Of a stretch of DNA of 64,000 bases, positions 2,109-54,220 are shown piece by piece; the first letter of the stretch is position 1; each line of letters opens with the position of its first letter. Source of the stretch: Winogradskyella sp. PC-19 (GTDB lineage: Bacteria > Bacteroidota > Bacteroidia > Flavobacteriales > Flavobacteriaceae); assembly GCF_002163855.1 (NCBI RefSeq), contig NZ_CP019332.1, positions 2,893,145-2,957,144 of the forward strand, read 5' to 3'. The notes beneath the pieces are model-generated. The model worked only from the letters and a program-made list of their open reading frames with translations. It was not told where the DNA came from and did not search any database. Both the position numbers and the translations under genes were made by a program.

Positions 2109-4261
2109 AACGAACACAATTAATCACCTTTCTCTTTTTAACTTTTAGCTTTTTTGCATTAGCCCAAACAACAATCTCAGGAAAAGTTATTGACACTAAA
2201 GGAAATCCTATAGCTGGAGCTAACGTGTATCTCGATGGTACTTATGATGGAGCAACTACAATAGAAGATGGTACGTTTTCTTTTGAAACTGAAGAAAGTG
2301 GAGTCCAAGCTTTAGTCGTCTCATTTCTATCTTACGAAACAAAAACCCTAAGCTTAGATGTGTCTCTTTTAAATAAGTTAGAAATCAAACTTCGTGAAGA
2401 TGTCAATACCTTAGATACGGTAGTTTTGTCCGCAGGAACTTTTGAAGCTAATGATAATAGTAAGGTTTCAGTTTTAAAACCTTTGGACGTTGTAACTACA
2501 GCTAGTGCACTAGGAGATTTTGTTGGTGCATTACAGACGTTACCTGGTACTTCTAATAATGCCGAAGATGGACGATTGTTTGTTCGTGGAGGTGATGCAA
2601 ACGAAACTCAGATTTTTATCGATGGTATCAGAGTCTTTACGCCATACACACCAACTACAAACAATTTACCAACACGCGGTCGTTATTCGCCCTTTTTGTT
2701 TGATGGCATTACATTTTCTACAGGTGGATATTCTGCCGAATATGGACAGGCCTTATCAAGTGTACTTTTATTAAATACTATTGATGAGCCAGATCAAGAA
2801 AAAACAGAAATAGGAGTAATGACTGTAGGAGCTACTTTGGGAAATACTCAAAAATGGGAGAAGTCTTCGGTTAGTGTCAATGCGTCTTATATAAATTTAG
2901 CACCATACTTGGCAGTATATTCTGACCGAAACGATTGGGAAAAACCTTTTGAGGGCTTGTCAGGTGAAACTGTTTTTAGAAGAAAATTCACGAATGGAAA
3001 TTTAAAGTTTTATGCAGCTTTTGACACAACAAATTTTGAGCTAACTCAAGAGGATATTAATGAGGCTGATGGCTTACAATTCAAATTAAAGAACAGTAAT
3101 TTTTATACAAATGCATCTTATAAAGGCATTTTAGAAAATAATTGGAGTATAACTACAGGATTAAGTTACACGCATGCAAGAAATAAAATTGGAGTAGAAG
3201 TCAATGACATTGATGATAAAGAAAACTCTTTTCATGCCAAGTTGAAATTAAAAAAACGTTTCAATAGCCGATTTAAATTAAATTTTGGTGTAGAACAATT
3301 TTTAACAGACTTTACTGAAGATTTTTCTAACCCATCATTTAATGAATCCTACGGATTTAATAATAATATTACTGCTGGATTTGCAGAAGCAGATTTGGTG
3401 TTCTCAAAAGATTTAGCCCTTAAGGTCGGATTACGTGCAGATTATAGTTCAATCTTCGAAAGTTTAAATATAGCTCCAAGAGCAGCTGTAGCTTATAAAG
3501 TATCTGACAACTCGCAATTATCCTTAGCATATGGTAACTTTTATCAGAATCCAAATGCTGGTGCTCTAAAATTCACTCAAGATTTAGAACCACAAATGAC
3601 ATCGCATTATATTTTTAATTACCAGTATGTCAATGATGGTCGTATTTTTAGAGCAGAGCTATACCGTAAAAATTATGAGAACTTAGTCAAATTTGATACT
3701 CAACTCGAACAGTTTGATAGTAACTTTAATTCAAATGGTAGCGGTTATGCTCAAGGATTAGATGTTTTTTGGAGAGATAATACAAGCATCAAGAACTTAG
3801 ATTACTGGGTTAGTTATTCGCTTTTAGATACGCAACGTGACCATCGTAATTTTTTGAACGCAGCACAGCCAAATTTTGCAAGTAAGCATAATTTTTCAGT
3901 GGTTGGTAAGTATTGGGTAGAGGGTTTAAAGAGTCAAATAGGTTTAGATTATGTGCATGCTTCTGGTCGTCCATACACAGACCCAAATACCAATCAATTT
4001 TTAGGTGAGCGTACCAAAAGTTTTAATAGTGTTAGTTTTAATTGGGCATATTTGATAAGTCAACAGAAAATTTTATACTTTTCTGTAAACAATGTTTTTG
4101 GCTTTAAAAACATTAATGGTTATCAATATTCAAACACACAAAACCCAAGCGGAAATTTTAGTAGACGCGCGTTAACGCCAGCTGCTGACCAGTTTTTCTT
4201 TGTAGGATTCTTTTGGACAATAAGTGAGAATAAGACTGATAATCAGCTTGATAATTTGTAA
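2090..4261 (+). CDS. TonB-dependent outer membrane receptor with carboxypeptidase-like domain
   Basis: This 723-aa protein has a Sec signal peptide ending near residue 26 (FFALAQ), a carboxypeptidase-D regulatory-like domain at about 28-105 (ISGKVIDTKGNPIAGANVYL), a plug domain at about 125-235 including LFVRGGDANETQIFIDGI, and a C-terminal beta-barrel. It would import a ligand across the outer membrane using energy passed on by TonB. A TonB gene follows 90 bases downstream. The substrate is unknown: there is no SusD partner, which argues against a classical glycan pair. The start codon lies inside a 14-bp direct repeat (2055-2068 and 2095-2108). Confidence 0.92.
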   Translation: MNSSIKKRTQLITFLFLTFSFFALAQTTISGKVIDTKGNPIAGANVYLDGTYDGATTIEDGTFSFETEESGVQALVVSFLSYETKTLSLDVSLLNKLEIKLREDVNTLDTVVLSAGTFEANDNSKVSVLKPLDVVTTASALGDFVGALQTLPGTSNNAEDGRLFVRGGDANETQIFIDGIRVFTPYTPTTNNLPTRGRYSPFLFDGITFSTGGYSAEYGQALSSVLLLNTIDEPDQEKTEIGVMTVGATLGNTQKWEKSSVSVNASYINLAPYLAVYSDRNDWEKPFEGLSGETVFRRKFTNGNLKFYAAFDTTNFELTQEDINEADGLQFKLKNSNFYTNASYKGILENNWSITTGLSYTHARNKIGVEVNDIDDKENSFHAKLKLKKRFNSRFKLNFGVEQFLTDFTEDFSNPSFNESYGFNNNITAGFAEADLVFSKDLALKVGLRADYSSIFESLNIAPRAAVAYKVSDNSQLSLAYGNFYQNPNAGALKFTQDLEPQMTSHYIFNYQYVNDGRIFRAELYRKNYENLVKFDTQLEQFDSNFNSNGSGYAQGLDVFWRDNTSIKNLDYWVSYSLLDTQRDHRNFLNAAQPNFASKHNFSVVGKYWVEGLKSQIGLDYVHASGRPYTDPNTNQFLGERTKSFNSVSFNWAYLISQQKILYFSVNNVFGFKNINGYQYSNTQNPSGNFSRRALTPAADQFFFVGFFWTISENKTDNQLDNL

Positions 4262-5723: not shown

Positions 5724-6059
5724 ATGGAAAAGATAATAACATTTAAAGATTTTACAAAAATAGATTTGCGTGTCGGTACAATAATTGAAGTTAATGATTT
5801 CCCTGATGCCAGAAACCCAGCTTATCAATTAACAATTGACTTTGGAGACTTAGGTATCAAAAAGTCTTCTGCTCAAATAACTACACTTTACAGTAAATCA
5901 GATTTACAGAACCGTCAAATTGTAGCGGTTGTAAATTTGCCAAAAAAGCAAATCGCCAAGTTTATGAGCGAATGTTTGGTAATGGGCGCTGTAAAAGAAA
6001 ATGACGTATACCTTTTGCATCCTGAAACTAAAGTTATAAATGGGAATGCTGTAAATTAA
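5724..6059 (+). CDS. csaA: CsaA-type tRNA-binding protein
   Basis: This 111-aa protein is a single oligonucleotide-binding-fold tRNA-binding domain, the same module as the C-terminus of MetRS. Diagnostic segments are KIDLRVGTIIEVNDFPDARNP near the start, SSAQITTLYS in the middle and NLPKKQIAKFMSECLVMGA towards the end. CsaA proteins form dimers and have been linked to protein export and tRNA binding. Length and motif order fit CsaA well. It converges with the M14 peptidase gene, with 22 bases between stops. Confidence 0.92.
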   Translation: MEKIITFKDFTKIDLRVGTIIEVNDFPDARNPAYQLTIDFGDLGIKKSSAQITTLYSKSDLQNRQIVAVVNLPKKQIAKFMSECLVMGAVKENDVYLLHPETKVINGNAVN

Positions 6060-6081
6060 AGTTTACCAAACATGGAAAAAA

Positions 6082-8586
6082 CTACAAATCCTCTCTAAAA
6101 AATATAGCGTTTATTAACAGTCTATTAGTACCATACCAAAATGCTCTAAAGTTGGTGTTGTCTGTGAAAGCGACAATAGTTCCGCGACCATAATTACCTA
6201 TTTTTAAAGGCACTGTTTTCGAAATACTGTCTAAGTTCTGTTTAGAGATATATCCACTTAATAAAGGGTTTTCGGTGTACTGTATCGGATTATTATAACT
6301 ATTCTTGTCTGGTTTTACAAACAACGTTGTGTTTCTAAACATCGGTAGCGTATTGTTTTTGTAACCAAAGTTTATTGGATGAGAACGATCGAGTTTTGCT
6401 TCAAAAATAGCACCACCAATAACTTGCGCACCTCTAAAGTCACTTGCTTGCTCACGTGATATATTTTTGGCAACAATTTTTGGTATTTTAAACTCCAGCT
6501 TAAGAAGTTTTTTAGAGTTTATATAGTTTAAGGCACGACGGTAACCAATAAGTGTTCCGCCATTTCTAATCCAAGATTGTAGTTTTTTGGTATTACCTTC
6601 ATTAAGACCAGAACCATTAACCATTATTATAGTATTGTAACGACTAATATCTGCTCTCGAAAAGTTTTTAGTATCCAGTTTGGTTACATGTATATCATAG
6701 CGCGTGTCTAGTAAGTGCCATATTTCTCCTGCATCATAAGACGTCATGCCGTCACCTACAAGTAAAGCTATTTTTGGTGATTCTAATGACCTAAAGTTAT
6801 TACTACCTAAATCAATACCATCATTTAATCCTGTTGAGACTGCGTCAAGATTTAGGTGACTTTCTTTAGCTAGTTTATTCAATGTTGTATATAATTCAGC
6901 TTCAGATATTTTTTGATTTTGTACAGGTATCATTAATGTCCCGTAGTCATAAGATTTTCCGTTTGCTCTGAACTGTTTCTGACTAACTTTGGCTCTGATG
7001 CCTTTTTGTAAAAGTGCGTATAAGAATTTTGGTGTGTAATATTCATTCCATTCAGTCAGATAAGCATAGTTACTTTTTGAAGAAGTACCGCCTGTTTTGA
7101 GTTTTAAATCAGATACTACAGCGCCAGCTTTGCTAGTTGAGGTTTTTGCATAATCTAGATTAAAGGCTAGAGGAAAAGACCAAGCAGAAATATCATAAAA
7201 TAAACTGTCTTGAAATTTTATGCGCTTTTCGAACATGGCATTAATCAATCGCGTATTGTTTTGATTTTTTGGAACAACATAGCTATAACCTTTTTTGAAA
7301 CGTTTTCCATCGACTTCAAAATCCGAGTCTATATCATGAAATCTAATATTATGACGCTTTAAAATTTCAGCCATATGATAGGTGCGCGCTGCATCTTTTT
7401 CATCACCAAAAACAATAGCGTCGTTACCTTCTTTTTTAGCTTCATTTCGTGCATTTTTAAAGAAGTCTGACTGGTATTGTAAAATATCAGAGCGCATACT
7501 GTTAGCAGCATCTAAGGTTGAAAGTGCTGCTGTAAATTGATTTCTAATCGTAAAAGGAAATGTTAGTAATCCATTTACACTTTCTTGAATATGTCCACGC
7601 GAGCTCGCTTGCTCAAATAAAATTCCAATGCCTCCATTAATATCCGGAAAGGTTGAACCTTTTCCGTAATAGAAATCATCAAAACTTTCTTCTGAGTAAT
7701 ATAAAGAGCCAATCTTATCCAAAGCTTTGGCGTGATAAGTTGCAATTTCTTTTGTTAGTGCTTGATTTAATTTAGGAGTCAATGGATGTGTACGTGACGG
7801 AATTCCAGGCTGAAAGAAAAAACTAGAATTTGTTCCCATTTCATGATGGTCGGTTAAGATATTTGGCATCCAATCATGAAAAGTTTTAATGCGAGCACGA
7901 GACTCTGGAAGCTGAACAGGAAGCCAATCTCTATTCATATCAAACCAATAGTGGTTTGTGCGACCGCCAGGCCAAATCTCACTGTATTCTCTATCATTTG
8001 GGTCAGGATTTAAGTTCTGACTTCTGTTTGTATTTGCCCAATAGGCAAAACGTTGTAAGCCATCTGGATTAAAAGACGGGTCAAATAGAATTACCGTATT
8101 ATCAAGGATATTATTAATCTTTTCGCCTTGAGCAGCAGCTAAATAATAAGCAACTGCTAAAGCTGCATTAGAACCACTTGGCTCATTACCATGGATAGAA
8201 AATCCTTGGTACACAACTATTGGTCTATCTGAATTTGCATTATCAGATGTCGTGGCATTTATATGAGCTTGTTTTATGCTTTCAAGATTTGTATGATTTT
8301 TGGGAGATGTGATTTTTAATAACAAAAGCGGTCTGTCTTCAAATGTTTTACCTCTGTTTTCAATAGTTATTCTATCCGAAACTTCAGCCAATGCTTGCAT
8401 ATACTGCACAAGCTTATCGTGGGTAATGTGCCATTCGCCAACTTCGTGACCGATTATACTCTTGGGTGTTGGAATCTCAGAATTGTAAGTTACACCTTGA
8501 GGTAAATAATAAGATAAATCAACTTTTTCTTGAGCAAATAAGGTTGTAGAAACTATAGTAAATACAAGTAATAGGATGCGACGCAT
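6082..8586 (-). CDS. Secreted M14 family zinc carboxypeptidase
   Basis: The 834-aa protein starts with a signal peptide (cleavage near LFAQ, residue 19). The M14 catalytic domain covers roughly residues 45-380: HGNE gives zinc ligands His132 and Glu135, NPDG lies at about 173-176, and the DHHE stretch near 246-249 supplies the third ligand. The C-terminal half (about 560-834) resembles a glutamine-amidotransferase-like domain often fused to such peptidases, including LVGDGMTSYDAG and the closing FRAFWYGTNRLLINAIFF. It probably trims peptides in the periplasm or outside the cell. It is a single-gene unit; no sorting tail was seen. Confidence 0.9.
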   Translation of the reverse strand: MRRILLLVFTIVSTTLFAQEKVDLSYYLPQGVTYNSEIPTPKSIIGHEVGEWHITHDKLVQYMQALAEVSDRITIENRGKTFEDRPLLLLKITSPKNHTNLESIKQAHINATTSDNANSDRPIVVYQGFSIHGNEPSGSNAALAVAYYLAAAQGEKINNILDNTVILFDPSFNPDGLQRFAYWANTNRSQNLNPDPNDREYSEIWPGGRTNHYWFDMNRDWLPVQLPESRARIKTFHDWMPNILTDHHEMGTNSSFFFQPGIPSRTHPLTPKLNQALTKEIATYHAKALDKIGSLYYSEESFDDFYYGKGSTFPDINGGIGILFEQASSRGHIQESVNGLLTFPFTIRNQFTAALSTLDAANSMRSDILQYQSDFFKNARNEAKKEGNDAIVFGDEKDAARTYHMAEILKRHNIRFHDIDSDFEVDGKRFKKGYSYVVPKNQNNTRLINAMFEKRIKFQDSLFYDISAWSFPLAFNLDYAKTSTSKAGAVVSDLKLKTGGTSSKSNYAYLTEWNEYYTPKFLYALLQKGIRAKVSQKQFRANGKSYDYGTLMIPVQNQKISEAELYTTLNKLAKESHLNLDAVSTGLNDGIDLGSNNFRSLESPKIALLVGDGMTSYDAGEIWHLLDTRYDIHVTKLDTKNFSRADISRYNTIIMVNGSGLNEGNTKKLQSWIRNGGTLIGYRRALNYINSKKLLKLEFKIPKIVAKNISREQASDFRGAQVIGGAIFEAKLDRSHPINFGYKNNTLPMFRNTTLFVKPDKNSYNNPIQYTENPLLSGYISKQNLDSISKTVPLKIGNYGRGTIVAFTDNTNFRAFWYGTNRLLINAIFFREDL

Positions 8587-21397: not shown

Positions 21398-21428
21398 AAA
21401 TTTATTTAAAATAAGTCTAAATAAATTT
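21398..21428. promoter_or_regulatory. Operator candidate 1 of the imelysin/TonB locus
   Basis: Perfect 11-bp arms AAATTTATTTA and TAAATAAATTT with a 9-base spacer AAATAAGTC. The right end touches the TTG of the promoter. Its right half AAGTCTAAATAAA recurs exactly at 21485-21497. Placement and symmetry suggest a repressor site; the iron connection is inferred from the genes downstream. Confidence 0.65.
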
Positions 21429-21457
21429 TGTGTAATTAGAAATACGTATTAAATTTG
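21428..21457 (+). promoter_or_regulatory. Promoter of the imelysin/TonB locus
   Basis: TTG at 21428-21430 and TAAATTTG at 21450-21457 are exactly 19 bases apart, the consensus Bacteroidota arrangement. Transcription should begin near 21464, giving a leader of about 54 bases that contains the second operator candidate. Confidence 0.75.
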
Positions 21458-21473
21458 CATTCGAAATAAATAA

Positions 21474-21496
21474 TTATTTATATCAAGTCTAAATAA
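21474..21496. promoter_or_regulatory. Operator candidate 2 of the imelysin/TonB locus
   Basis: Perfect 7-bp arms TTATTTA and TAAATAA with a 9-base spacer TATCAAGTC, the same spacing as candidate 1. It lies just downstream of the predicted transcription start, so the two dyads bracket the promoter. Confidence 0.6.
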
Positions 21497-21517
21497 ACTT
21501 TAAAATCAATTCAAAAA

Positions 21518-22705
21518 ATGAAAAAATTAATATTAAGTATTTGTGTAGTTGGTAGCCTATTCACATCATGTGATAGCGACGACGATAATGGCAGTAACGC
21601 AAACCAAGTTACAGCACCACAAACGTTCGTGTTTGAAAGAAACGGAAACACAACCGTAAGTTATAGCGGTCAAACGACCAGAATAGAAATGGGAGAAGAA
21701 TTTGTTTCTGCGTTAAAAGACCCATCAAAAACAGAAGCTCAGTTAGATGGTATGTTTACCAACACAGGCGATAATTTCTCAGATGCCGATTTAAATAGTT
21801 CTTCAAAAACAATAAGAAGTAAAACTGCAGCTTCTCAAGATTATTTTTCTTCAAATACAACCGAAGCAAATGCCATAAAAGCGCAGTTTGATGGTTGGAT
21901 AGCTAATCAAGTCAACGATGTTTACCCAAGATGGAATGATTTAGCTTCTGCTGGTGTTGCGGGTCAAATTCAAGAAGCAGGCGGAACAGTGCGTTATGTA
22001 AATGGAAAAGGACTAGAGTATAACCAAGCGATTAACAAAGGATTAATTGGTGCATTAATGGTAGACCAAATGCTCAATAACTATTTAAGTACTTCAGTTT
22101 TAGATGAAGGTCAAAATCGTGCTAATAATGATAACGAAGTTTTAGAAGAAGGAAAAAACTATACAAAAATGGAGCACAAATGGGACGAGGCTTTCGGTTA
22201 TTTATATGGGACCGACAACGCTATTGTACCATTGCTTAACCAAGATAGTTTTTTAAATAAATATTTATCTCGTGTAGAAAATGACACAGATTTTACTGGT
22301 ATTGCTCAAGAAATTTACGATGCCTTAAAATTAGGTAGAGCCGCAATTGTAGCTAAAAATTACGAAGTAAGAGACCAACAAGTAGATATTATTAGAGAAA
22401 AAGTTTCTGAAATTGTAGGAATTAGAGCAGTCTACTACTTACAGCAAGCAAAAGCGACTTTAGGAACAGACAATGCATCTGCATTTCATGATTTATCTGA
22501 AGGTTTTGGATTTATAATGAGTTTACAATTCACAAGAGAACCAGGAGCCGATGCACCATATTTTAGTAAGTCTGAGGTTGATGGATTTTTAGCACAACTT
22601 ATGGAAAATGATGGTTTCTGGGATGTGACATCTGCAACACTAGATAATATGTCTGATAGTATTGCAGCACGTTTTGATTTTACTGTGGCACAAGCCGCTA
22701 ACTAA
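21518..22705 (+). CDS. DUF4856 lipoprotein
   Basis: The 395-aa product starts MKKLILSICVVGSLFTSC, a lipoprotein signal with the modified cysteine at residue 18 and acidic residues after it. The rest matches the DUF4856 family as I know it: NTTVSYSGQTTRIEMG at the start and KMEHKWDEAFGYLYG in the middle, a segment that resembles the helical imelysin repeat. It is the first gene of the locus, followed by an imelysin lipoprotein, an HTTM protein and a TonB receptor. A metal-binding or metal-delivery role is inferred from this context; no activity is established. Confidence 0.85.
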   Translation: MKKLILSICVVGSLFTSCDSDDDNGSNANQVTAPQTFVFERNGNTTVSYSGQTTRIEMGEEFVSALKDPSKTEAQLDGMFTNTGDNFSDADLNSSSKTIRSKTAASQDYFSSNTTEANAIKAQFDGWIANQVNDVYPRWNDLASAGVAGQIQEAGGTVRYVNGKGLEYNQAINKGLIGALMVDQMLNNYLSTSVLDEGQNRANNDNEVLEEGKNYTKMEHKWDEAFGYLYGTDNAIVPLLNQDSFLNKYLSRVENDTDFTGIAQEIYDALKLGRAAIVAKNYEVRDQQVDIIREKVSEIVGIRAVYYLQQAKATLGTDNASAFHDLSEGFGFIMSLQFTREPGADAPYFSKSEVDGFLAQLMENDGFWDVTSATLDNMSDSIAARFDFTVAQAAN

Positions 22706-22767
22706 ATAAAGTTGAGTTAATCACAAATTAGTATGTGCTTCAATTAGGTTTGAAGCATTTACTAGTT

Positions 22768-22775
22768 TAAATTTG
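22768..22775 (+). promoter_or_regulatory. Weak -7 element before the imelysin gene
   Basis: TAAATTTG fits TAnnTTTG, 26 bases before the ATG at 22802. The nearest upstream TTG (22750) is only 15 bases away, so an internal promoter is possible but weak. Confidence 0.3.
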
Positions 22776-22801
22776 CAAAAAAATTGAAAAAGAATATAAT
22801 T

Positions 22802-23926
22802 ATGTTAAAAAAGATTGCCCTTTTAAGTCTTGGTTTGTTCCTTATCATTTCATGTAGTTCTTCTAGTGATGGGACTGACGAACCTATAGACAATTTTGAT
22901 AGAACTGCATTATTAACAAATTTAGCAGATAACATTATCATTCCTGCTTTATTAGATTTTCAATCTGAAATATCAGCCTTAGATGTGGCAAGGGCAAATT
23001 TTGTAAATGATATTAATCAGAATAATCTTGATGCTTTAAGTGGAGCTTGGTTAGAAGCTTACACATCTTGGCAAAATATTGAAATGTTTAATTTAGGCAT
23101 TGCTGAAACACTTTCTGCTGATGCCAATGATGGCTTCATAGTATTTTTTAATAGATTTCCTGTGACTGTTTCTGATATTGAAACAGGAGCTTCAACAGGA
23201 AATTACGATTTAACAAGCACCAATTTTTATGATGCACAAGGATTTCCAGCTCTAGACTTCTTAATTCATGGTACAGCAACTGGAGACACAAATGCAATAG
23301 ATAAATTTACAACCAATGCTAACGCAGATGGTTATGTAGACTATATGACAGATGTTTTTTCTTTAATGAATTCTACAATAAACATAGTGGTTAGCGACTG
23401 GCAAGGCACATACCGAAATACATTTGTAAGCAATACTGAATCAAGCACATCTGGTTCTTTGGATATTATTATTAATGATTTTATCCGTTATTACGAAAAA
23501 GGATTAAGAGCAAATAAAATTGGAACACCAGCAGGAAATTTCTCTGAAGGCGAAACATTTCCAGATAAAGTTGAAGGATTTTATAAAAATGATGTTTCAA
23601 AGCAATTAGCGTTAGAAGGTTTAGGTTCTGTACAACGATTTTTTAATGGAAACGCATTCAGCAATAATACAAGTGGATTTGGTCTAGCTGATTATTTAGA
23701 TGCTGTTGAGCGTACAGATTTAAAAAATGAAATTAATGCGCAGTTTCAAGTGGCTAAGGAAAGTATTGAGTCTTTAAACAATAGTTTTAGCGAGCAGATA
23801 ACTGCGGATAATACACAAATGACGCAAGCTTATGACGAGTTACAGCGCGCAGTAGTACTACTTAAAATCGATATGGCATCGGCACTAAATGTTGATATCG
23901 TATTTTTTGATAATGATGGAGATTAA
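22802..23926 (+). CDS. Imelysin family (M75) lipoprotein
   Basis: This 374-aa protein has a lipoprotein signal (LFLIISC, modified cysteine at residue 18) and then an all-helical imelysin domain: SGAWLEAYTSWQNIEMF in the first repeat, GFPALDFLIHG at the usual position of the GxHxxE-like motif, and a matching second half. Imelysins are linked to iron uptake and regulation in several bacteria; whether they are peptidases is doubtful. The open frame runs to a TTG at 22784, but the ATG at 22802 gives a better signal peptide. A strong hairpin terminator follows the gene and precedes the HTTM gene. Confidence 0.9.
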   Translation: MLKKIALLSLGLFLIISCSSSSDGTDEPIDNFDRTALLTNLADNIIIPALLDFQSEISALDVARANFVNDINQNNLDALSGAWLEAYTSWQNIEMFNLGIAETLSADANDGFIVFFNRFPVTVSDIETGASTGNYDLTSTNFYDAQGFPALDFLIHGTATGDTNAIDKFTTNANADGYVDYMTDVFSLMNSTINIVVSDWQGTYRNTFVSNTESSTSGSLDIIINDFIRYYEKGLRANKIGTPAGNFSEGETFPDKVEGFYKNDVSKQLALEGLGSVQRFFNGNAFSNNTSGFGLADYLDAVERTDLKNEINAQFQVAKESIESLNNSFSEQITADNTQMTQAYDELQRAVVLLKIDMASALNVDIVFFDNDGD

Positions 23927-23944
23927 AAAATATATAATATAAGT

Positions 23945-23980
23945 AAAAGGGATTCTTGTATATCGAGAATCCCTTTTTTT
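23945..23980 (+). terminator. Terminator or attenuator directly before the HTTM start codon
   Basis: Perfect 8-bp GC-containing arms GGGATTCT (23949-23956) and AGAATCCC (23966-23973), extended by A-T pairs, followed by a run of T ending at 23980. The HTTM ATG is at 23985, so this hairpin occupies the place where a ribosome binding region would be. Confidence 0.8.
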
Positions 23981-23984
23981 GGTA

Positions 23985-25349
23985 ATGAAGTACAAGTTTC
24001 AATCCTATATCAATAAAACAACACCTGCCGCGCCATTAGCGGTTTTCCGTATTGGTTTTGGTCTAATGATGCTTGCAAGTATCATAAGGTTTTGGGCTAA
24101 AGGTTGGATTGAAACCGTTTATATAGCACCAAAATTTCACTTTACATATTTCGGTTTCGATTGGGTAAAGCCACTTGATAATTATACGTATTTGCTATTT
24201 TTTATCTGCGGGCTTTCAGCATTTTTCGTCGCACTTGGCTTAAAGTATCGGCTTGCTATTATTACGTTTTTTATCAGTTTTACGTACATCGAGTTAATAG
24301 ACAAAACTACATATCTAAACCATTACTACTTTATCAGTATTGTTAGTTTTGTGATGTGTTTTTTGCCAGCAAATGCATACTTTTCTATAGATGCTATACG
24401 CAGAAAAGTAAGCTATACATCCATTCCAAAATGGACTATAGATTGCATAAAGCTTTTGCTAGCAATCGTTTATGTATACGCAGGTTTGGCAAAAATTAAT
24501 TCCGATTGGATGAATCGTGCAATGCCTCTAAAAATATGGTTGCCATCTAAATACGATTTACCACTAATTGGGAATAACTTGATGCAGCAAGATTGGTTTC
24601 ATCATGCCATGAGTTGGTCGGGTATGCTGTACGACTTGGCAATTCCTTTTTTATTACTTTACAAACGTACCCGATTGATAGCGTTTTTCTTTGTCGTATT
24701 TTTTCATGTATTTACCAGAGTACTATTCAATATAGGTATGTTTCCTTATGTGATGATTGTTTCAGCATTGATATTTTTTGATGCAAGTGTTCATGAAAAA
24801 ATCTTGAATATTTTCCGAGCTGTTTTTAAGTTTTTAAGATTGAAAGCCAACACGCTTCAAACCAAAGTTTATGCTTATCAAAAGCAAAAAATAGTTTTGC
24901 CAATCTTGGCTATTTTCTTTGCTATTCAACTACTTTTGCCATTTCGATATTTGTTATATCCAGGAGAGTTATTTTGGACCGAAGAAGGTTATCGTTTTTC
25001 GTGGCGTGTGATGTTAATTGAAAAGGCTGGCTTTGCAGAATTTAAGGTTGTGAATGGTAAAACAGGCGAAAAATTTTTAGTTAATAACTCAGATTTTTTA
25101 ACGCCATTTCAAGAGAAGCAAATGAGCACACAGCCAGATTTTATTTTGCAATATGCTAAGTATTTAGAAGCACATTTTTCGGCACAAGGACACCAAAACA
25201 TCGAAATTTATGTCGATAGTTATGCAGCTCTAAATGGTCGAATAAGTACACGTTTTATTGACCCAAATGTCAATTTATTAGAACAAGAAGAATCATTTCA
25301 ACACAAAAATTGGATTTTACCATTTAAGGATGAGATTAAAGGATTTTAG
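23985..25349 (+). CDS. HTTM-domain membrane protein (gamma-carboxylase-like)
   Basis: The 454-aa protein has about 8-10 membrane helices in its first two thirds and an ordered C-terminal domain. The N-terminal part matches the HTTM domain shared with vitamin K-dependent gamma-carboxylase: LAVFRIGFGLMMLAS, then LNHYYFISIVSF and YVYAGLAKINSDWM. Bacterial members have no proven reaction. Its last 20 bases overlap the start of the TonB receptor gene, so the two are translationally coupled. The C-terminal segment around LFWTEEGYRFSWRVMLIEKAG is also typical. The frame extends to a TTG at 23979, but the ATG is preferred. Confidence 0.88.
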   Translation: MKYKFQSYINKTTPAAPLAVFRIGFGLMMLASIIRFWAKGWIETVYIAPKFHFTYFGFDWVKPLDNYTYLLFFICGLSAFFVALGLKYRLAIITFFISFTYIELIDKTTYLNHYYFISIVSFVMCFLPANAYFSIDAIRRKVSYTSIPKWTIDCIKLLLAIVYVYAGLAKINSDWMNRAMPLKIWLPSKYDLPLIGNNLMQQDWFHHAMSWSGMLYDLAIPFLLLYKRTRLIAFFFVVFFHVFTRVLFNIGMFPYVMIVSALIFFDASVHEKILNIFRAVFKFLRLKANTLQTKVYAYQKQKIVLPILAIFFAIQLLLPFRYLLYPGELFWTEEGYRFSWRVMLIEKAGFAEFKVVNGKTGEKFLVNNSDFLTPFQEKQMSTQPDFILQYAKYLEAHFSAQGHQNIEIYVDSYAALNGRISTRFIDPNVNLLEQEESFQHKNWILPFKDEIKGF

Positions 25350-27756
25350 AATAGTAGTTGTACTCATTTTAGTGAGTGTTTCAGGTTTTGCCCAACAGAA
25401 AATATCTGGAATAATCACAGATGCTTCAACACAACAAAGGCTTAAAGATGTTGAAATTTATGACAAAGCTTCAGGTTTACTAACCAAAACAGATGCACAA
25501 GGTTATTATGAATTTACAACTAATAAAACGGAATTCACCCTAGTCTTTTTCTCTTTAGAATTTCAAGTTTTAGAAATTGAAGTTAATACAAATTCAGACC
25601 AGCAAATCAATAAACAACTGCAACCCATTGGCGAAACACTAACAGCAGTAGAAATCACAGCTCGGAAAGCCAAAGTTTTTGAGTTAGCACGTTTGCGAGA
25701 TGTAGAAGAAACTGCAATTTACGCAGGCAAAAAAACCGAAGTTGTTTTAGTTGACCAATCCATGGCTAATTTGGCCACCAATAATGCTAGGCAGTTGTAC
25801 AGCCAAGTCGCTGGTTTAAATATCTACCAAAATGATGATGCAGGTTTGCAATTAAATATTGGTGGACGTGGATTAGACCCAAACCGAACGGCAAATTTTA
25901 ATACACGTCAAAATGGGTACGATATTAGTGCAGATGTTTTGGGCTACCCAGAAAGTTATTATGCTCCAGCATCAGAAGGCTTAAAAGAAATTCAGGTGAT
26001 ACGTGGTGCTGCATCATTGCAATACGGTACTCAGTTTGGTGGCTTAATTAATTTTGTAATGAAAAAGCCAAATCCAAACAAACCTTTAGAAGTTATTACT
26101 AGAAATACGCTTGGGAGCTTTGGGCTTTATACAAATTTCACAAGCTTAAGTGGTACAAAAGACAAGTGGAGTTACTACACGTATTTTAACTACAAAAAAG
26201 GAGATGGGTTTCGTCCAAACTCTGAGTTTGAATCAAAAAATGTTTTTGCCCATATCGGATACCAATTTAACGACAAAACAAAGCTTACAGGCGAAATTAC
26301 TTATTTGGATTACTTAGCCCAACAAGCTGGAGGTTTAACGGATAGACAGTTTAACGAAGACCCATTTCAGAGCAATCGCGAACGTAACTGGTTTGAGGTA
26401 GATTGGCTGTTATATAACGTAAAGTTGGCGCACCAATTTTCTAAAAAGACCAATTTTACATTAAACTTCTTTGGGCTTAATGCCTCTAGAAATGCTTTAG
26501 GATTTAGAGATAGGCGAGTAGAAGCGCAAGACCCAGGAGAAGAACGCGAGTTAATCATTGGCGATTTTAATAATTACGGTTTTGAGGCACGCCTATTGAG
26601 CAAATACAAATTGTTTGAAAAAGATAATACCTTTTTAATTGGGACTAAGTTTTACAATGCCAATAACTTTCAGCAACAAGGTCCAGGTTCTGATGGCGTA
26701 AATCCCGATTTTTCTATCAGAGACGAAGAGTTTCCTAATTTTCCAAGTCAATCGCAGTTTGATTTACCTAACTTAAATGTTTCTGTTTTTGGAGAAAATA
26801 TTTTGTATGTAAATGATAAGTTCTCTATCACGCCAGGTTTTAGATTTGAATACATTAAAACACAAAGCGAAGGATTCTTTAAACGTATCAATACAGATGC
26901 TGCCGGCAACGTTATTTTTGAAGAAACTATTGTTGATAACCGCGATTTTGAACGGTCATTTGTATTGCTTGGTTTAGGATTGAGTTACAAGCCAAGCACT
27001 AATCTCGAAATCTACGGTAATATTTCACAGAATTACCGTTCGGTGACATTTTCCGATATTAATATTGTAAATCCTGCATTTTCAGTGAGTCCAGATATTA
27101 CAGATGAAGATGGATTTACGGTTGACCTAGGTTTCCGAGGTAATTTTGATAAATACGTTTCTTATGACATTGGCGCTTTTGCACTGTTTTACAACGGACG
27201 TATTGGGTTTATTCAAAAAGGATTGGACGATGGTCGTGTCGTTAGTGAACGTGGTAATGTTGGAGATGCTAGAATGTTTGGAATTGAATCTTTAGTTGAT
27301 TTCAATTTAAAAAAAGTGTTTGATTTAAATAACGATTTTAGCTTAAATGCTTTTGCAAATACGTCATTTATTACTTCAGAATATACAAGTTCTTTAGAAA
27401 ACAATGTGGAAGGAAATCGCGTAGAATTTGTGCCAGAATTAAACTTAAAAACAGGTCTTCGTTTTGGCTACAAAGATTTTATGGCAAATGTGCAGTACAC
27501 TTATTTAGGGCAGCAATTTACCGATGCGTCAAATGCTGTAAACTCCAATATAAGTGGTGTTATTGGAGAAATACCAGAGTACGATATTTTAGACTTTTCA
27601 GTAGCTTACACATACAAAAGGTTTAAACTTGAGGCTGGAGTCAATAACGTTTTAGACAATGCTTATTTTACACGCCGTGCAACAGGTTATCCAGGACCAG
27701 GAATTATTCCTTCTGCGCCACGAAATTGGTTTACGACTTTACAGATAAAGTTCTAA
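25330..27756 (+). CDS. FecA-like TonB-dependent receptor
   Basis: The 808-aa protein has a signal peptide (VSGFAQ, near residue 22), a carboxypeptidase-like domain (about 25-105: ISGIITDASTQQRLKDVEIY), a plug (about 135-245) with LQLNIGGRGLDPNRTANFNT and GLKEIQVIRGAASLQYGTQ, and a C-terminal barrel ending in Phe. The plug resembles FecA-type siderophore receptors. The gene overlaps the HTTM gene by 20 bases. Together with the imelysin and DUF4856 lipoproteins it suggests uptake of iron or an iron complex; substrate unproven. Confidence 0.92.
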   Translation: MRLKDFRIVVVLILVSVSGFAQQKISGIITDASTQQRLKDVEIYDKASGLLTKTDAQGYYEFTTNKTEFTLVFFSLEFQVLEIEVNTNSDQQINKQLQPIGETLTAVEITARKAKVFELARLRDVEETAIYAGKKTEVVLVDQSMANLATNNARQLYSQVAGLNIYQNDDAGLQLNIGGRGLDPNRTANFNTRQNGYDISADVLGYPESYYAPASEGLKEIQVIRGAASLQYGTQFGGLINFVMKKPNPNKPLEVITRNTLGSFGLYTNFTSLSGTKDKWSYYTYFNYKKGDGFRPNSEFESKNVFAHIGYQFNDKTKLTGEITYLDYLAQQAGGLTDRQFNEDPFQSNRERNWFEVDWLLYNVKLAHQFSKKTNFTLNFFGLNASRNALGFRDRRVEAQDPGEERELIIGDFNNYGFEARLLSKYKLFEKDNTFLIGTKFYNANNFQQQGPGSDGVNPDFSIRDEEFPNFPSQSQFDLPNLNVSVFGENILYVNDKFSITPGFRFEYIKTQSEGFFKRINTDAAGNVIFEETIVDNRDFERSFVLLGLGLSYKPSTNLEIYGNISQNYRSVTFSDINIVNPAFSVSPDITDEDGFTVDLGFRGNFDKYVSYDIGAFALFYNGRIGFIQKGLDDGRVVSERGNVGDARMFGIESLVDFNLKKVFDLNNDFSLNAFANTSFITSEYTSSLENNVEGNRVEFVPELNLKTGLRFGYKDFMANVQYTYLGQQFTDASNAVNSNISGVIGEIPEYDILDFSVAYTYKRFKLEAGVNNVLDNAYFTRRATGYPGPGIIPSAPRNWFTTLQIKF

Positions 27757-27775
27757 AACAGAGTTTTTTTAGAGG

Positions 27776-27802
27776 TTTGTTTTAAATCAGTCTAAATACA
27801 AA
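27776..27802. promoter_or_regulatory. Third, weaker operator-like dyad
   Basis: The sequence carries an imperfect dyad, TTTGT-TTTA then an 8-base spacer then TAAATACAAA, and shares AGTCTAAATA with the two operator candidates at 21.4 kb. It lies between the TonB receptor and the cysteine-rich gene. Confidence 0.4.
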
Positions 27803-27878
27803 AAATTGTTTTTCAATACTTTAGGTTTATTTTAAGATAATTCTTTTTTATCTTAGGAAAAATAATAAAATAAAAATT

Positions 27879-28127
27879 ATGTCTATAAGAATAGGAAACA
27901 GCTGTATTAATTGTGAAAATTTAGGTAAGAATAATCTGTGTAGTAAACACGGTGTAAAAGTTGCAAAAAACTATACATGTGATAGTTTTAATATGAAAGC
28001 AGCATTAAAAAACGACCCTAACTGCGGCAATTGCGCACGTTTTGAATCCTCAAATTGTGCAAACCCAACAAAAGCAGCACCATCTATGTTATGTTCACAC
28101 TGGGCGCCTCAGAATGCTCAAGCTTAG
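27879..28127 (+). CDS. Small protein with two cysteine-rich metal-binding modules
   Basis: The 82-aa protein contains eight cysteines arranged as two similar modules: Cys9-x2-Cys12-x8-Cys21-x12-Cys34, and Cys49-x2-Cys52-x7-Cys60-x11-Cys72. A histidine lies close to each module (His24, His74). The pattern suggests binding of zinc or an iron-sulfur centre; I do not recognise a named family. It has no signal peptide and is probably cytoplasmic. It lies 122 bases after the TonB receptor, has an operator-like dyad upstream and its own terminator, so it may be a separately transcribed member of the same regulon. Confidence 0.75.
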   Translation: MSIRIGNSCINCENLGKNNLCSKHGVKVAKNYTCDSFNMKAALKNDPNCGNCARFESSNCANPTKAAPSMLCSHWAPQNAQA

Positions 28128-32480: not shown

Positions 32481-32597
32481 AGTATCTTGATTTTAGTTCT
32501 TTGTTATAAAACATTCTAATAAGGGTTTTTCCTAGCTAATAAATAATTTATCTTTTTTTTAGGGTTTTGATATATAAGGGTTATTGTGTTTTCGTCG

Positions 32598-32605
32598 TAT
32601 CTTTG
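32598..32605 (+). promoter_or_regulatory. Candidate -7 element for carotenoid locus A
   Basis: TATCTTTG fits TAnnTTTG and lies 8 bases before the crtD-like ATG at 32614. No TTG is at the ideal distance, which suggests a weak or activated promoter. Confidence 0.35.
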
Positions 32606-32613
32606 AAAACGCT

Positions 32614-34095
32614 ATGAAACAGAAATCTGTAATTATTGTAGGTGCTGGTATTGCTGGTATATCTGCTGCAATTAGACTAAGATGTCAGGGCCACAACGTT
32701 TCGGTTTACGAAGCTAATAATTACCCAGGCGGAAAGCTTACTGCTTTTTCAGAAAATGGCTACCGTTTTGACATGGGGCCATCATTGTTTACGATGCCTC
32801 AATTTGTTGAAGACTTATTCAAAACAGCCAATACTAATATTTCAGATTATTTTCAGTACAAGAAAAAGGACGTCGTATGTAACTACTTTTATGAAGATGG
32901 GACTACGTTTTCAGCAGTATCAGACGAAGATGAGTTTGCTAAAAAAGCAGAACAGACTTTTGATATTAAAGCAGAAGACATTAAAGAATATTTTAAGCAA
33001 AGCAAAAAGAAATATGATTTAACAGCTTCGCTTTTTCTTGAAAAATCGCTTCATAAGGTGATTACTTACTTATCTAAAGGTACGCTCAAGGCCATTTTTA
33101 ATATTAATAGTTTGGATATTGATAGTACATTAGATACTTATAATTCAAAGATGTTAAAGGATAATCGTTTGGTGCAATTCTTTAACCGTTTTGCAACTTA
33201 CAATGGGTCTTCGCCTTACCAAACACCTGGTATTATGTCAATGATACCACATCTGGAACAATATTTTGGAACTTACTTTCCAAAAGGCGGAATGCACCAA
33301 ATTACTTTAAGCCTGTTTAAATTAGCAACAGATATTGGAGTAGATTTTACTTTTGATACTAAGGTTGAAGAGATTATAACTAAGAATAACAAAGTAGTTG
33401 GTGTTGGTACAAAGCTAAAAGATAAAACGATTAAAGCGGATATAGTAGTCAGCAACTCCGACGTTGTTCCAACGTATCGATACTTACTAAAAAAACATAA
33501 AGCACCCGAAAAAATATTGCAGCAACCCAGAAGTAGTTCGGCTTTAATATTTTATTGGGGAATTAAAAAAGAATTCCCACAATTAGATTTGCATAATATA
33601 TTTTTCTCCGAGGATTACAAAACAGAGTTTGATTATATTTTTAATAAAAAGAATGTTTCTGATGACCCAACAGTTTATATAAATATTACATCAAAAGAAG
33701 AAGAATCTGATGCTCCAAAAGGGCATGAAAATTGGTTTACGATGGTTAATGTACCAAGCAATATAGGGCAAGATTGGGATAAGATTATTAAAGAAACTCG
33801 AGTTAACATCATCTCTAAATTAAGCCGATTGTTGGGAGAAGATATTTCAGATTTAATTGAATTTGAGTCCATCTTAGACCCAAGGACTATTGAGTCTAGA
33901 ACACAAAGCTTTCAAGGTGCACTGTATGGCGCGTCGAGTAATAATAAATATGCTGCCTTTTTAAGACATCCAAACTTTAAATCTAGTATAAAAAATCTTT
34001 ATTTCTGTGGTGGTAGTGTTCATCCTGGTGGCGGCATTCCTTTGTGTTTGCTATCAGGGAAAATAGTTTCAGAATTAATTAAAAAAAATAATTGA
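32614..34095 (+). CDS. crtD: CrtD-type carotenoid 3,4-desaturase
   Basis: The 493-aa FAD-dependent desaturase has the dinucleotide-binding start IIVGAGIAGISAAIRL, PGGKLTAF and FDMGPSLFTMPQ, and the C-terminal FCGGSVHPGGGIPLCLLSGK. It differs clearly from the CrtI encoded at 54.2 kb and resembles the flavobacterial CrtD group, which introduces the 3',4' double bond into 1'-hydroxylated carotenoids. Its stop overlaps the start of the CruF-like gene, which performs the preceding hydration, strongly supporting this role. The ATG at 32614 is used; the frame extends to a TTG at 32584. Confidence 0.85.
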   Translation: MKQKSVIIVGAGIAGISAAIRLRCQGHNVSVYEANNYPGGKLTAFSENGYRFDMGPSLFTMPQFVEDLFKTANTNISDYFQYKKKDVVCNYFYEDGTTFSAVSDEDEFAKKAEQTFDIKAEDIKEYFKQSKKKYDLTASLFLEKSLHKVITYLSKGTLKAIFNINSLDIDSTLDTYNSKMLKDNRLVQFFNRFATYNGSSPYQTPGIMSMIPHLEQYFGTYFPKGGMHQITLSLFKLATDIGVDFTFDTKVEEIITKNNKVVGVGTKLKDKTIKADIVVSNSDVVPTYRYLLKKHKAPEKILQQPRSSSALIFYWGIKKEFPQLDLHNIFFSEDYKTEFDYIFNKKNVSDDPTVYINITSKEEESDAPKGHENWFTMVNVPSNIGQDWDKIIKETRVNIISKLSRLLGEDISDLIEFESILDPRTIESRTQSFQGALYGASSNNKYAAFLRHPNFKSSIKNLYFCGGSVHPGGGIPLCLLSGKIVSELIKKNN

Positions 34096-34730
34096 TGTTA
34101 GATAAAAAGTTTAAACGTAACTTTTCAGTATTTCTGATTTGGTTATTTATTATTTCGGGAATTTTTGGAGTGCTATCTTCAGAGTACTCAGATTGGTTTT
34201 TAGGTATGACACCTTTAAACCTATTGCTAATGTTCGTGATATTGATAGTTAATATTAAAACGTATAAAAAAGCTGTTTTTATAGCATTAAGCATTCCGTT
34301 TTTAATAGGATTTATTACTGAAGCTTTAGGTGTAAATTTTGGGTTAATCTTTGGTAGCTATGCTTATGGAGAAAATTTAGGTTATAAAGTATTTGGTGTG
34401 CCTTTAATGATATGTATCAATTGGGCTTTATTAACAGCCGTTACTGCAGATGTTGCAAAGTCTATCTCTAAAAACAAGATTTTAACTGCAGCAATAGGTG
34501 CAATTTTAATGACTGTACTAGATTTAATTTTAGAAGTATCTGCACCTCGTTTTGATTTTTGGGAATTTGATGGTGGTGTGGTACCGTTACAAAACTATTT
34601 GGGTTGGGTAGTAACTGCATTTGTTGCACATTTAGGGTATCAGTATTTTAATATAAAGACAGATAAATTTATATCTTGGCACATATTAATCTCTATCACT
34701 ATATTTTTTTCCGTGTTTTTATTCTATTAG
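34095..34730 (+). CDS. cruF: CruF-type carotenoid 1',2'-hydratase (DUF422)
   Basis: A 211-aa polytopic membrane protein with about 6-7 helices. ITEALGVNFGLIFGSYAYGENLGYK and GVPLMICINWALL are typical of the carotenoid biosynthesis (DUF422/CruF) family, as are LDLILEVSAPRFDFWEF and the loop GGVVPLQNYLGW. CruF adds water across the 1',2' bond of the acyclic end of gamma-carotene-type molecules. The ATG overlaps the crtD stop (TGATG), and the crtY ATG follows its stop with no gap, so the three genes form one tight operon. Confidence 0.88.
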   Translation: MLDKKFKRNFSVFLIWLFIISGIFGVLSSEYSDWFLGMTPLNLLLMFVILIVNIKTYKKAVFIALSIPFLIGFITEALGVNFGLIFGSYAYGENLGYKVFGVPLMICINWALLTAVTADVAKSISKNKILTAAIGAILMTVLDLILEVSAPRFDFWEFDGGVVPLQNYLGWVVTAFVAHLGYQYFNIKTDKFISWHILISITIFFSVFLFY

Positions 34731-35864
34731 ATGAAAGATTATAACTATATCATACTAGGTGCTGGTGCATCGGGATTAATGTTGGCTTACAGAATGGCTA
34801 ATGATAGTTTTTTTGATGATAAATCTATTCTTATTATAGATAAAGATTCTAATAAGGGCAACGACAGAACTTGGTCCTATTGGGAAGAAGGTCAAGGAAA
34901 ATGGGATGATGTTACAGATAAAATTTGGGACTCTGTTTTTTTTAGTAACCAAACTTTTTCTAAAACTATTGACATTTTACCCTATCGTTACAAGATGATT
35001 CGCAGTGAAGCTTTTTATAATAAAATGTGGGATAGAATTAAAACTAAATCTAATATCCAATTTTTAGAGGCTTCAGTAGATGATTTTAAAGAGAATGATA
35101 CAGTTGTAGTAAAAACATCTAGAGGAGAATTTAGCACTAGCCAGTTGTTTAATAGCATTCCTAAATCTAGTTATAAGAACCAAGAAAAGTTTCCTGTTTT
35201 ACAGCAACATTTTTTGGGTTGGTTTATAAAAACTGCTGCAGATACTTTTGATGATGCTACAGCAACATTTATGGATTTTTCGGTACCTCAAAAAGGCAAT
35301 ACTCGCTTTATGTATGTTTTGCCTGTAGATAAGCAGACAGCGTTGTTTGAATATACCTTATTCTCAAAGGATTTGCTAGAGATTTCAGAATATGAAAATG
35401 CGATTAAATCTTACCTCAATGAAAAAGGTATTAAAGACTATGAGATAATAGAAACTGAAAAAGGGTCAATACCAATGACATCTTATAATTTTTTGGAATC
35501 TAATACCTCAAAAATTTTTAATATCGGAACAGCTGGTGGATGGACAAAGGCAAGCACAGGTTATACATTTAGAGCTACCACTAAAAAAACAAAAGATATT
35601 ATTGAGCTCCTTAAAAAGCAAAAGGATATTTCTAACTACAAGGGTAAACGTAAGTTTTGGTTTTACGACTTATTGTTTTTGGATGTTTTAGCTAATCATA
35701 ACGAAAGCGGTTCAGCGTTGTTTTCTAGCTTATTTAAAAAAACTGATGTCAAAACAATTTTTCGATTTCTAGATGAAGAATCATCACTTCTAGAGGACTT
35801 AAAAATTATTATATCTGTACCACCAAAACACTTTATTTCAGCATTATTTAAGCGTTTATTTTAG
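34731..35864 (+). CDS. crtY: Lycopene cyclase
   Basis: The 377-aa flavoprotein begins YNYIILGAGASGLMLAYRM, the CrtY dinucleotide-binding start, with DRTWSYWEEG and the MFVLP-like segment FMYVLPVDKQTALFEYTLF, then GTAGGWTKASTGYTF near residues 262-280. It forms beta-ionone rings on lycopene in the membrane, giving gamma- and beta-carotene. It is the last gene of locus A. The 3' end overlaps the stop of the convergent small gene by 4 bases. Confidence 0.92.
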   Translation: MKDYNYIILGAGASGLMLAYRMANDSFFDDKSILIIDKDSNKGNDRTWSYWEEGQGKWDDVTDKIWDSVFFSNQTFSKTIDILPYRYKMIRSEAFYNKMWDRIKTKSNIQFLEASVDDFKENDTVVVKTSRGEFSTSQLFNSIPKSSYKNQEKFPVLQQHFLGWFIKTAADTFDDATATFMDFSVPQKGNTRFMYVLPVDKQTALFEYTLFSKDLLEISEYENAIKSYLNEKGIKDYEIIETEKGSIPMTSYNFLESNTSKIFNIGTAGGWTKASTGYTFRATTKKTKDIIELLKKQKDISNYKGKRKFWFYDLLFLDVLANHNESGSALFSSLFKKTDVKTIFRFLDEESSLLEDLKIIISVPPKHFISALFKRLF

Positions 35865-52914: not shown

Positions 52915-53361
52915 CTACTTAAAATACTTTTTTGGAACAATAAGCATCCCAAAATTTTCGCCTTTATGTTTTCCTAAATGTTTGTGGTGAATTTTGTGAG
53001 CACGTCTTACACCACGAGCATACTTGTTGTCGATATTTCTTAACCATTTAAAACGCTGATGGATAAATATATCATGAACAACGAAATAAGCAATCCCGTA
53101 TGCTAAAATTCCAAAGCCAATAGGTAAGGTAAACCACATACCTTCAACACTCCACAAATAGAAGCATGTCATACTCACTACAGCATAAAAAATAAAAAAA
53201 GCATCATTACGCTCAAACCAGCTATCGTGGTCTTTATGATGATGGTCTTTGTGTAAGCTCCATAAAAAACCATGCATTACGTATTTATGAGTAAACCATG
53301 CGTTGAATTCCATTATAAAAAATGTCCCGAAGAATATAAGTATCCAAAGAAATGTTTGCAT
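52915..53361 (-). CDS. crtZ: Beta-carotene hydroxylase
   Basis: The 148-aa membrane di-iron enzyme shows all the expected histidine clusters: HKYVMH, HKDHHHKDH, HDIFIHQRF and HKIHH. It hydroxylates C3 of beta-ionone rings, turning beta-carotene into zeaxanthin and adding a 3-hydroxyl to gamma-carotene derivatives. About three to four membrane helices surround the clusters. It is the last gene of locus B, 15 bases after crtB, and ends back to back with the TlpA-like gene. Confidence 0.95.
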   Translation of the reverse strand: MQTFLWILIFFGTFFIMEFNAWFTHKYVMHGFLWSLHKDHHHKDHDSWFERNDAFFIFYAVVSMTCFYLWSVEGMWFTLPIGFGILAYGIAYFVVHDIFIHQRFKWLRNIDNKYARGVRRAHKIHHKHLGKHKGENFGMLIVPKKYFK

Positions 53362-53376
53362 TGAGGTAAGTAATTT

Positions 53377-54216: not shown

Positions 54217-54220
54217 GTTT

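Follow-up and report, generated by a model that had tools for sequence, protein, structure and literature searches.

In human gamma-glutamyl carboxylase (GGCX), as seen by cryo-electron microscopy, K218 serves as the base, N159, H160, and Y395 hold the substrate Glu, and the naphthoquinone is surrounded by F286, F294, F299, H160, V210, M401, and W223 (PMC12589487). A homologue of this vitamin K-dependent carboxylase (VKGC) exists in Leptospira (PMC4555120). Iron-regulated imelysin lipoproteins are known from PA4370-4372, an imelysin-DHOR-imelysin gene set (DHOR, di-haem oxidoreductase), and from the EfeUOB/M systems (PMC3143127). In Riemerella anatipestifer, a TonB receptor (RAYM_09779), a "vitamin K-dependent gamma-carboxylase" (RAYM_09784), an imelysin (RAYM_09789), and a hypothetical protein (RAYM_09794) are listed together as Fur-regulated in Table 4 of an RNA sequencing study (PMC5609570). 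Here, we describe a locus of Winogradskyella sp. PC-19 in which genes for a DUF4856 lipoprotein, an imelysin-family lipoprotein, an HTTM/VKGC membrane protein, and a FecA-like TonB-dependent receptor follow one another. The window, that is, the whole stretch of DNA analyzed, comprises 64,000 nt of contig NZ_CP019332.1, and all positions are given in its numbering. The locus is very probably an iron operon with a VKGC-type enzyme. For the fuller reading, in which Fur represses an operon for iron acquisition and one of the operon's own products, a menaquinol-dependent carboxylase, matures an envelope protein, the chances are about even.

Five consecutive open reading frames (ORFs), all on the plus strand, were found within 21398..28127. 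The DUF4856 lipoprotein gene (21518..22705; Pfam PF16148, 487 bits) is followed by that of the imelysin-family lipoprotein (22784..23926; PF09375, 87.7 bits against a cut-off of 23.5), an ORF with a second in-frame ATG at 22802. The next gene (23985..25349, alternative TTG start at 23979) encodes an integral membrane protein that belongs to the HTTM/VKGC superfamily by both of its domains, HTTM (PF05090, 265 bits) and VKGC_lumenal (PF22777, 208 bits), each having a cut-off of 27.7 bits. The receptor gene (25330..27756) encodes CarbopepD_reg_2, plug, and barrel domains. The stop of the HTTM gene and the start of the receptor gene overlap by 20 nt (25330-25349); a preliminary description of this DNA had called the two genes translationally coupled. 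The identical overlap was found in 47 of 80 close relatives. The fifth ORF (27879..28127) encodes an 82-aa protein with eight cysteines and without a Pfam match. The grouping pointed out in the preliminary description is real and, judging by the recurrence in relatives, far beyond chance.

The close relatives, mainly Flavobacteriaceae, are the best 80 of at least 581 confirmed relatives; among the matches listed, the closest HTTM relatives of the window protein belong to Winogradskyella, with up to 77% identity. The order imelysin-HTTM-receptor was found in all 80 of them and DUF4856 in 78, one of these being a contig-end fragment. A broad sample of 198 Bacteroidota genomes, for which every listed match was compared, contained 53 VKGC_lumenal matches in 46 genomes, 33 DUF4856 matches in 33 genomes, and 57 imelysin matches in 47 genomes. 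Of the 53 VKGC genes, 39 are preceded by a same-strand imelysin gene no more than 4 kb away. Nearly all DUF4856 genes (31 of 33) lie inside an imelysin-VKGC cluster, two of these 31 being weak matches (23 and 20 bits). With local hidden Markov models (HMMs), the order imelysin-HTTM-receptor was found for 40 of the 53 VKGC genes, one of these clusters being truncated at both ends by its 3.7-kb contig. Eight clusters have no Pfam DUF4856; six of them hold a lipoprotein of similar length at this place, and five of these six match the DUF4856 HMM, so that all four genes are present in about 36 of the 40 clusters. The core families thus occur together far beyond close relatives, and the confinement to close relatives that the preliminary description had named as grounds for giving up its proposal was not seen.

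The region upstream of the DUF4856 gene (21404-21494) contains regulatory features that the preliminary description did not mention. A Fur-box-like palindrome at 21404..21422 agrees at 17 of 19 positions with the 19-position Fur consensus published for R. anatipestifer (PMC5609570), against which all Fur boxes herein were scored with a cut-off of at least 15/19. It is the sole site of at least 16/19 in the scan of the 64-kb window; a second Fur-box-like site (21476..21494) scores 15/19. Between the two sites, the plus strand (21427..21457) matches the pattern TTTG-N19-TAnnTTTG, the promoter consensus of the Bacteroidota type. This pattern was found upstream of DUF4856 in 60 of 105 loci, compared with 0.2 in mononucleotide shuffles; it precedes imelysin in 3 of 118 loci and HTTM and receptor in 0 of 120 each. 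In 40 of the 60 promoter-bearing loci, the Fur box begins 23 nt upstream of the TTTG.

Of 77 close loci, 76 have a Fur box before DUF4856, compared with 52 of 1540 dinucleotide shuffles (3.4%). These 77 come from 81 loci (loci are cited by L numbers), from which L007 and L031, having no DUF4856, and the truncated L010 and L071 were dropped. In the same 77 loci, a box was found before imelysin in 17, before HTTM in 1, and before the receptor in none. Among distant operons from across the phylum, a box was found at the operon start in 33 of 38, and for 36 of the 38 at most one of 50 mononucleotide shuffles scores as high, the exceptions being L140 and L143. The distant set is taken from 40 operon loci, less L119, a duplicate of L001, and L162, truncated by the end of its contig; the scores of L143 (9/19) and L151 (17/19) refer to the sequence upstream of imelysin. 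By these predicted upstream sites, the operon is a putative member of the Fur regulon.

A terminator-like hairpin with a T run, likewise new relative to the preliminary description, is located on the plus strand in the gap between the imelysin and HTTM genes (23945..23977; -19.6 kcal/mol, z -5.15 against shuffles). A simple script, applied to the set without a shuffle control, found a similar hairpin in 51 of 81 loci (the window and its 80 relatives); the distant loci mostly have none. One promoter probably serves all four main genes as a single operon, in which the hairpin is a possible attenuator in this lineage.

Published expression data bear on the link to iron that the preliminary description had drawn. 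For RAYM_09779-09794, values of 2.1-3.1 are given for -Fe/+Fe in the wild type and of 1.4-1.9 for fur mutant/wild type with iron, with |log2 ratio| > 1 as the threshold (PMC5609570). These genes, which apparently correspond to the operon, have consecutive locus tags in the expected order and all rise under iron restriction; RAYM_09794 is only presumed to encode DUF4856. They differ from the loci described here in being known from a table entry, and Table 5 of that study gives no Fur box for them (PMC5609570). In an iron-homeostasis mutant of Bizionia argentinensis, the ten transcripts with the strongest decrease include those of an imelysin-like gene and a siderophore receptor, and one TonB receptor of this species rises with ferric citrate (PMC9478572). 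The B. argentinensis genome has a single PF09375 match, and the reduced gene would be the operon imelysin. Given the co-occurrence, the Fur boxes, and the Riemerella data, an iron role is well supported.

The HTTM protein resembles human GGCX over nearly its whole length, residues 9-450 being aligned to GGCX 53-506 (E=4.6e-49). It shares with GGCX the HTTM and lumenal domains, the catalytic Lys, the Glu-binding Asn-His pair, and most of the naphthoquinone pocket. Residues K172, N114, and H115 (numbered from the TTG start) correspond to GGCX K218, N159, and H160. Invariant in all 121 operon HTTMs (L119 and L001, the same gene, both counted) are the positions of K218, N159, H160, F286, F294, F299, W223, A214, G259, and M402. 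The position of Y395 is occupied by Y in 91 and F in 30, so that all Glu-holding residues are retained with Y or F at 395. The naphthoquinone pocket is kept except for M401, which is V in 121 of 121; V210 is found in 118. Of the tunnel positions, A214 and G259 are kept, G258, V254, and V255 vary, and N290 is T in all. The lysine is present in 13 of 13 VKGC proteins outside the operon as well. A basic stretch at about 272-303, before the last membrane helix, would by inspection be cytoplasmic, which would place the C-terminal domain in the periplasm. The preliminary description had called this protein an unassigned inner-membrane enzyme and did not mention that the GGCX active site is kept. By sequence and active-site residues, it can be assigned to the gamma-glutamyl carboxylases. 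The VKGC homologue of Leptospira, also bacterial, reportedly has neither the catalytic lysine nor carboxylase activity, whereas this lysine is invariant in the operon HTTMs.

In total, 13 VKGC genes of the broad sample are located outside the cluster. Eight of these adjoin ribF (L146, L147, L152, L154, L155, L156, L164, and L165), and six of the eight also adjoin a serS-like gene; Pfam confirmed three of the ribF and two of the serS neighbors. The ribF-linked HTTMs have His at the Y395 position. None of the eight has a Fur box, the best scores being 10-12 of 19 before HTTM (inside ribF) and 11-13 before ribF. The solo VKGC L149, a member of the operon clade, has a Fur box of 16/19. In a careful tree, a single fully supported branch separates the operon HTTMs from the ribF-linked ones, and L149 groups with the operon; GGCX, L166, L167, L170, L171, L119, and 71 of the 80 close loci were omitted from this tree. 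A quick tree that included GGCX, L166, L167, L170, and L171 also has L149 inside the operon clade, with long-branch warnings. Since the Fur box is found in the operons and L149 but not in the ribF-linked copies, the iron switch is tied to the operon clade and not to the whole enzyme family. A further HTTM/VKGC gene, on plasmid p1 of the alphaproteobacterium Paracoccus albus (L174), adjoins a DUF393 gene and a gene for an AraC regulator, with no annotated iron genes near.

The two upstream proteins are lipoproteins, as the preliminary description had stated: a lipobox cysteine was found in both window proteins and in 105 of 107 DUF4856 and 120 of 121 imelysin family members. At least two acidic residues follow within six positions of this cysteine in 96 of the 105 and 74 of the 120, respectively. 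In the window DUF4856 protein, an acidic stretch follows cysteine 18. Acidic residues at this place resemble the surface-export signals of Bacteroidota; both lipoproteins would then be exposed on the cell surface. The AlphaFold2 model of DUF4856 (predicted local distance difference test 93.0, predicted template modeling score 0.89) is mostly helical with one small beta hairpin, and a comparison that included the imelysin fold gave no clear structural relative. In 71 aligned members, R55, E167, K174, D223, Y249, Y307, and E328 are invariant. All eight diverged upstream lipoproteins, seven of them HMM-detected, keep K174, Y249, Y307, H324, and E328. The conserved residues probably form the functional site of DUF4856.

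The imelysin has the motif GFPALD where canonical imelysins have GxHxxE, and thus lacks the canonical form; in the family, the P of this motif is found in 96 and the D in 111 of 121 members. It resembles the Pro-bearing GxxxxE branch of imelysins described earlier (PMC3143127). PA4370-4372 and EfeUOB/M differ from the operon, which has no DHOR, EfeB peroxidase, or EfeU, and contains DUF4856, HTTM, and a TonB receptor instead.

Among solved structures, FecA comes closest to the receptor by sequence, over both plug and barrel (E=1e-19, 73.7 bits), in keeping with the name FecA-like given to it earlier. The similarity is low, and the receptor can be called FecA-like only: it scores 117 bits with the NCBIfam FecA equivalog, for which the cut-off is 1100, and it is also under the NCBIfam siderophore-receptor cut-offs. 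It further differs from FecA in its CarbopepD_reg_2 extension and in that no Fec-type regulator gene is present in the operon.

A mechanism can be proposed from these features. At low iron, Fur would leave the promoter, and DUF4856, imelysin, HTTM, and receptor would be co-transcribed; in this lineage, partial termination after imelysin may bring the lipoproteins to a higher level than the enzyme and the receptor. The HTTM protein would act like human GGCX, in the inner membrane, using O2, CO2, and menaquinol (vitamin K2), the respiratory quinol of Bacteroidota. The lysine equivalent to K218 would be the base, and selected Glu residues would be converted to gamma-carboxyglutamate (Gla) on the periplasmic face. 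The substrate would most likely be DUF4856 or the imelysin, possibly the receptor. Gla would provide hard-metal ligands, through which the lipoproteins may bind ferric iron or ferric chelates for delivery to the FecA-like receptor. The simplest interpretation is that a modifying enzyme encoded in a Fur operon has the products of neighboring genes as substrates and menaquinol as its cofactor. We consider the HTTM somewhat more probably than otherwise an active carboxylase; whether it acts on an operon partner is evenly balanced. More speculative, and rather doubtful at present, is the broadest form of the proposal, in which Gla-bearing surface lipoproteins or receptors bind ferric iron under a Fur switch. 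The clotting-factor reaction would thereby gain a second physiological role, with iron taking the place of calcium, in about one-fifth of the sampled Bacteroidota genomes.

Several observations weigh against a carboxylase that matures an envelope protein under iron control. No Glu-rich, Gla-like stretch was found in the window's operon proteins, none of which exceeds 6 E in any 45 residues; the conserved Glu residues of DUF4856 do not pick out one carboxylation site, and the operon imelysins are not richer in Glu than DHOR-linked ones (4.7% vs 5.8%, n=15). Besides M401 and N290, three GGCX positions are changed in all 121 operon HTTMs: N158 (to L), R436 (Q in 110), and K217 (Ala in 118, Thr in 3). 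The GGCX disulfide C99-C450 is absent, with F at one site in 121 of 121 and mostly Y or F at the other, and homology stops at GGCX 506, leaving the rest of the lumenal part of GGCX without a counterpart and the propeptide-binding part incomplete. The operon HTTM, a bacterial protein of an iron operon, is therefore not classed as a propeptide-directed GGCX-type carboxylase; with active-site residues kept and others changed, the chemistry looks kept and substrate recognition looks different. VKOR, which recycles the epoxide in the vitamin K cycle, is not associated with VKGC (9 of 46 VKGC genomes vs 32 of 152 others). The ribF-linked paralogues keep K218, N159, and H160 with no iron genes adjoining, so the enzyme family is not inherently one of iron enzymes. 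DUF4856 also occurs in two genomes without a VKGC match (L172 and L173). The Fur box is below the cut-off in L058 among the close loci and in L140, L143, L148, L153, and L160 among the distant ones. Finally, RAYM_09779-09794 are still iron-responsive in the fur mutant (2.7-3.1; PMC5609570), and Fur is therefore not the sole input.

Some of these points would fit an iron operon whose HTTM performs no protein carboxylation and is instead a menaquinol-epoxidizing enzyme, an O2-consuming one, or a carboxylase of a small molecule, e.g., a chelator. The missing Gla-like substrate, the end of the HTTM at GGCX 506, and the substrate-side changes at N158 and R436 all speak for it, and a role other than carboxylation has reportedly been suggested for the Leptospira homologue, in which the lysine is lost. 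However, none of the 121 operon HTTMs departs from K218, N159, or H160, position 395 is always Y or F, and a pure epoxidase need not retain a Glu pocket; we regard this explanation as possible but unlikely. It is improbable, too, that instead of free or siderophore-bound iron the Fur-controlled operon has heme, ferric citrate, or another metal handled by this receptor as its cargo. Over plug and barrel, no solved structure is closer to the receptor than FecA, the Fur box is strong, and an iron-type imelysin-DHOR-imelysin cluster adjoins the operon in at least five genomes. Such a cargo would nevertheless agree with the receptor scores, which are under both the FecA and the siderophore cut-offs; cargo is unreadable from sequence, and PMC3143127 did not resolve the imelysin ligand.

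The preliminary description had further suggested one complete import path from the outer membrane to the cytoplasm. This part was not borne out, as no inner-membrane permease is encoded among the operon genes and the HTTM protein is an enzyme of the VKGC type, not a transporter. That the HTTM could still be a transport or coupling component of such a path, being polytopic and encoded by a gene that overlaps the receptor gene, is very unlikely for a near whole-length homologue of a membrane enzyme with its catalytic residues kept, and solo and ribF-linked copies of it exist. The probability that the genes stand together by chance or through inherited synteny only is negligible, and this explanation is already refuted. 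The flanks are indeed syntenic as well in the 80 close relatives (HMGL in 58, IMPDH in 53, and PyrD in 50), but the core holds together when the flanks change and across the phylum; it includes overlapping genes and has a single promoter-like site and a single Fur box.

To our knowledge, no bacterial VKGC homologue has an established role. Here, one is found with an intact active site, in a regulon (iron) and with constant partners, so that it becomes directly testable whether and which Glu becomes Gla, and why under iron starvation. The proposal would also assign DUF4856 its first function and outline a route of iron uptake in many marine flavobacteria. In the open-access literature searched, a search outside which subscription papers fall, the operon is not described as a system and DUF4856 is not mentioned; HTTM appears neither together with imelysin and TonB nor, as an HTTM domain-containing protein, with iron, and vitamin K-dependent gamma-carboxylase occurs together with TonB only in PMC5609570.

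The eight-cysteine protein, which the preliminary description had included in the set, is an optional neighbor and not part of the core. Only 7 of the 80 close relatives have its gene next to the operon, and in two of these seven it is encoded on the other strand. Among 100 genomes of the family, 18 eight-cysteine loci were found, of which seven have the operon receptor (six) or DUF4856 (one) within about 1.5 kb. The protein consists of two similar modules and has no signal peptide by eye; eight cysteines and one histidine are invariant across 21 eight-cysteine sequences.

Variants of the locus and its surroundings were also observed. In Winogradskyella ouciana, two DUF4856 genes (L002:5951-8671) and a distant HTTM match (3815-4117) are found in one locus. 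The operon of Winogradskyella undariae (L007) lacks DUF4856 and has a gene for a PepSY/flavodoxin/ferric-reductase-like fusion upstream (5799-7994). The DUF4856 gene of L173 adjoins a different TonB receptor. An imelysin-DHOR-imelysin cluster with Pfam-confirmed DHOR follows the receptor on the minus strand in L008, L018, L031, L050, and L061, and similar imelysins follow the receptor in L006, L007, and L009. Elsewhere in the window, two carotenoid-synthesis-like gene groups (32584-35864 and 52915-56583) were recognized by inspection of the ORFs only; they comprise desaturases, a cyclase, a phytoene synthase, a hydroxylase, and a MerR-like regulator.

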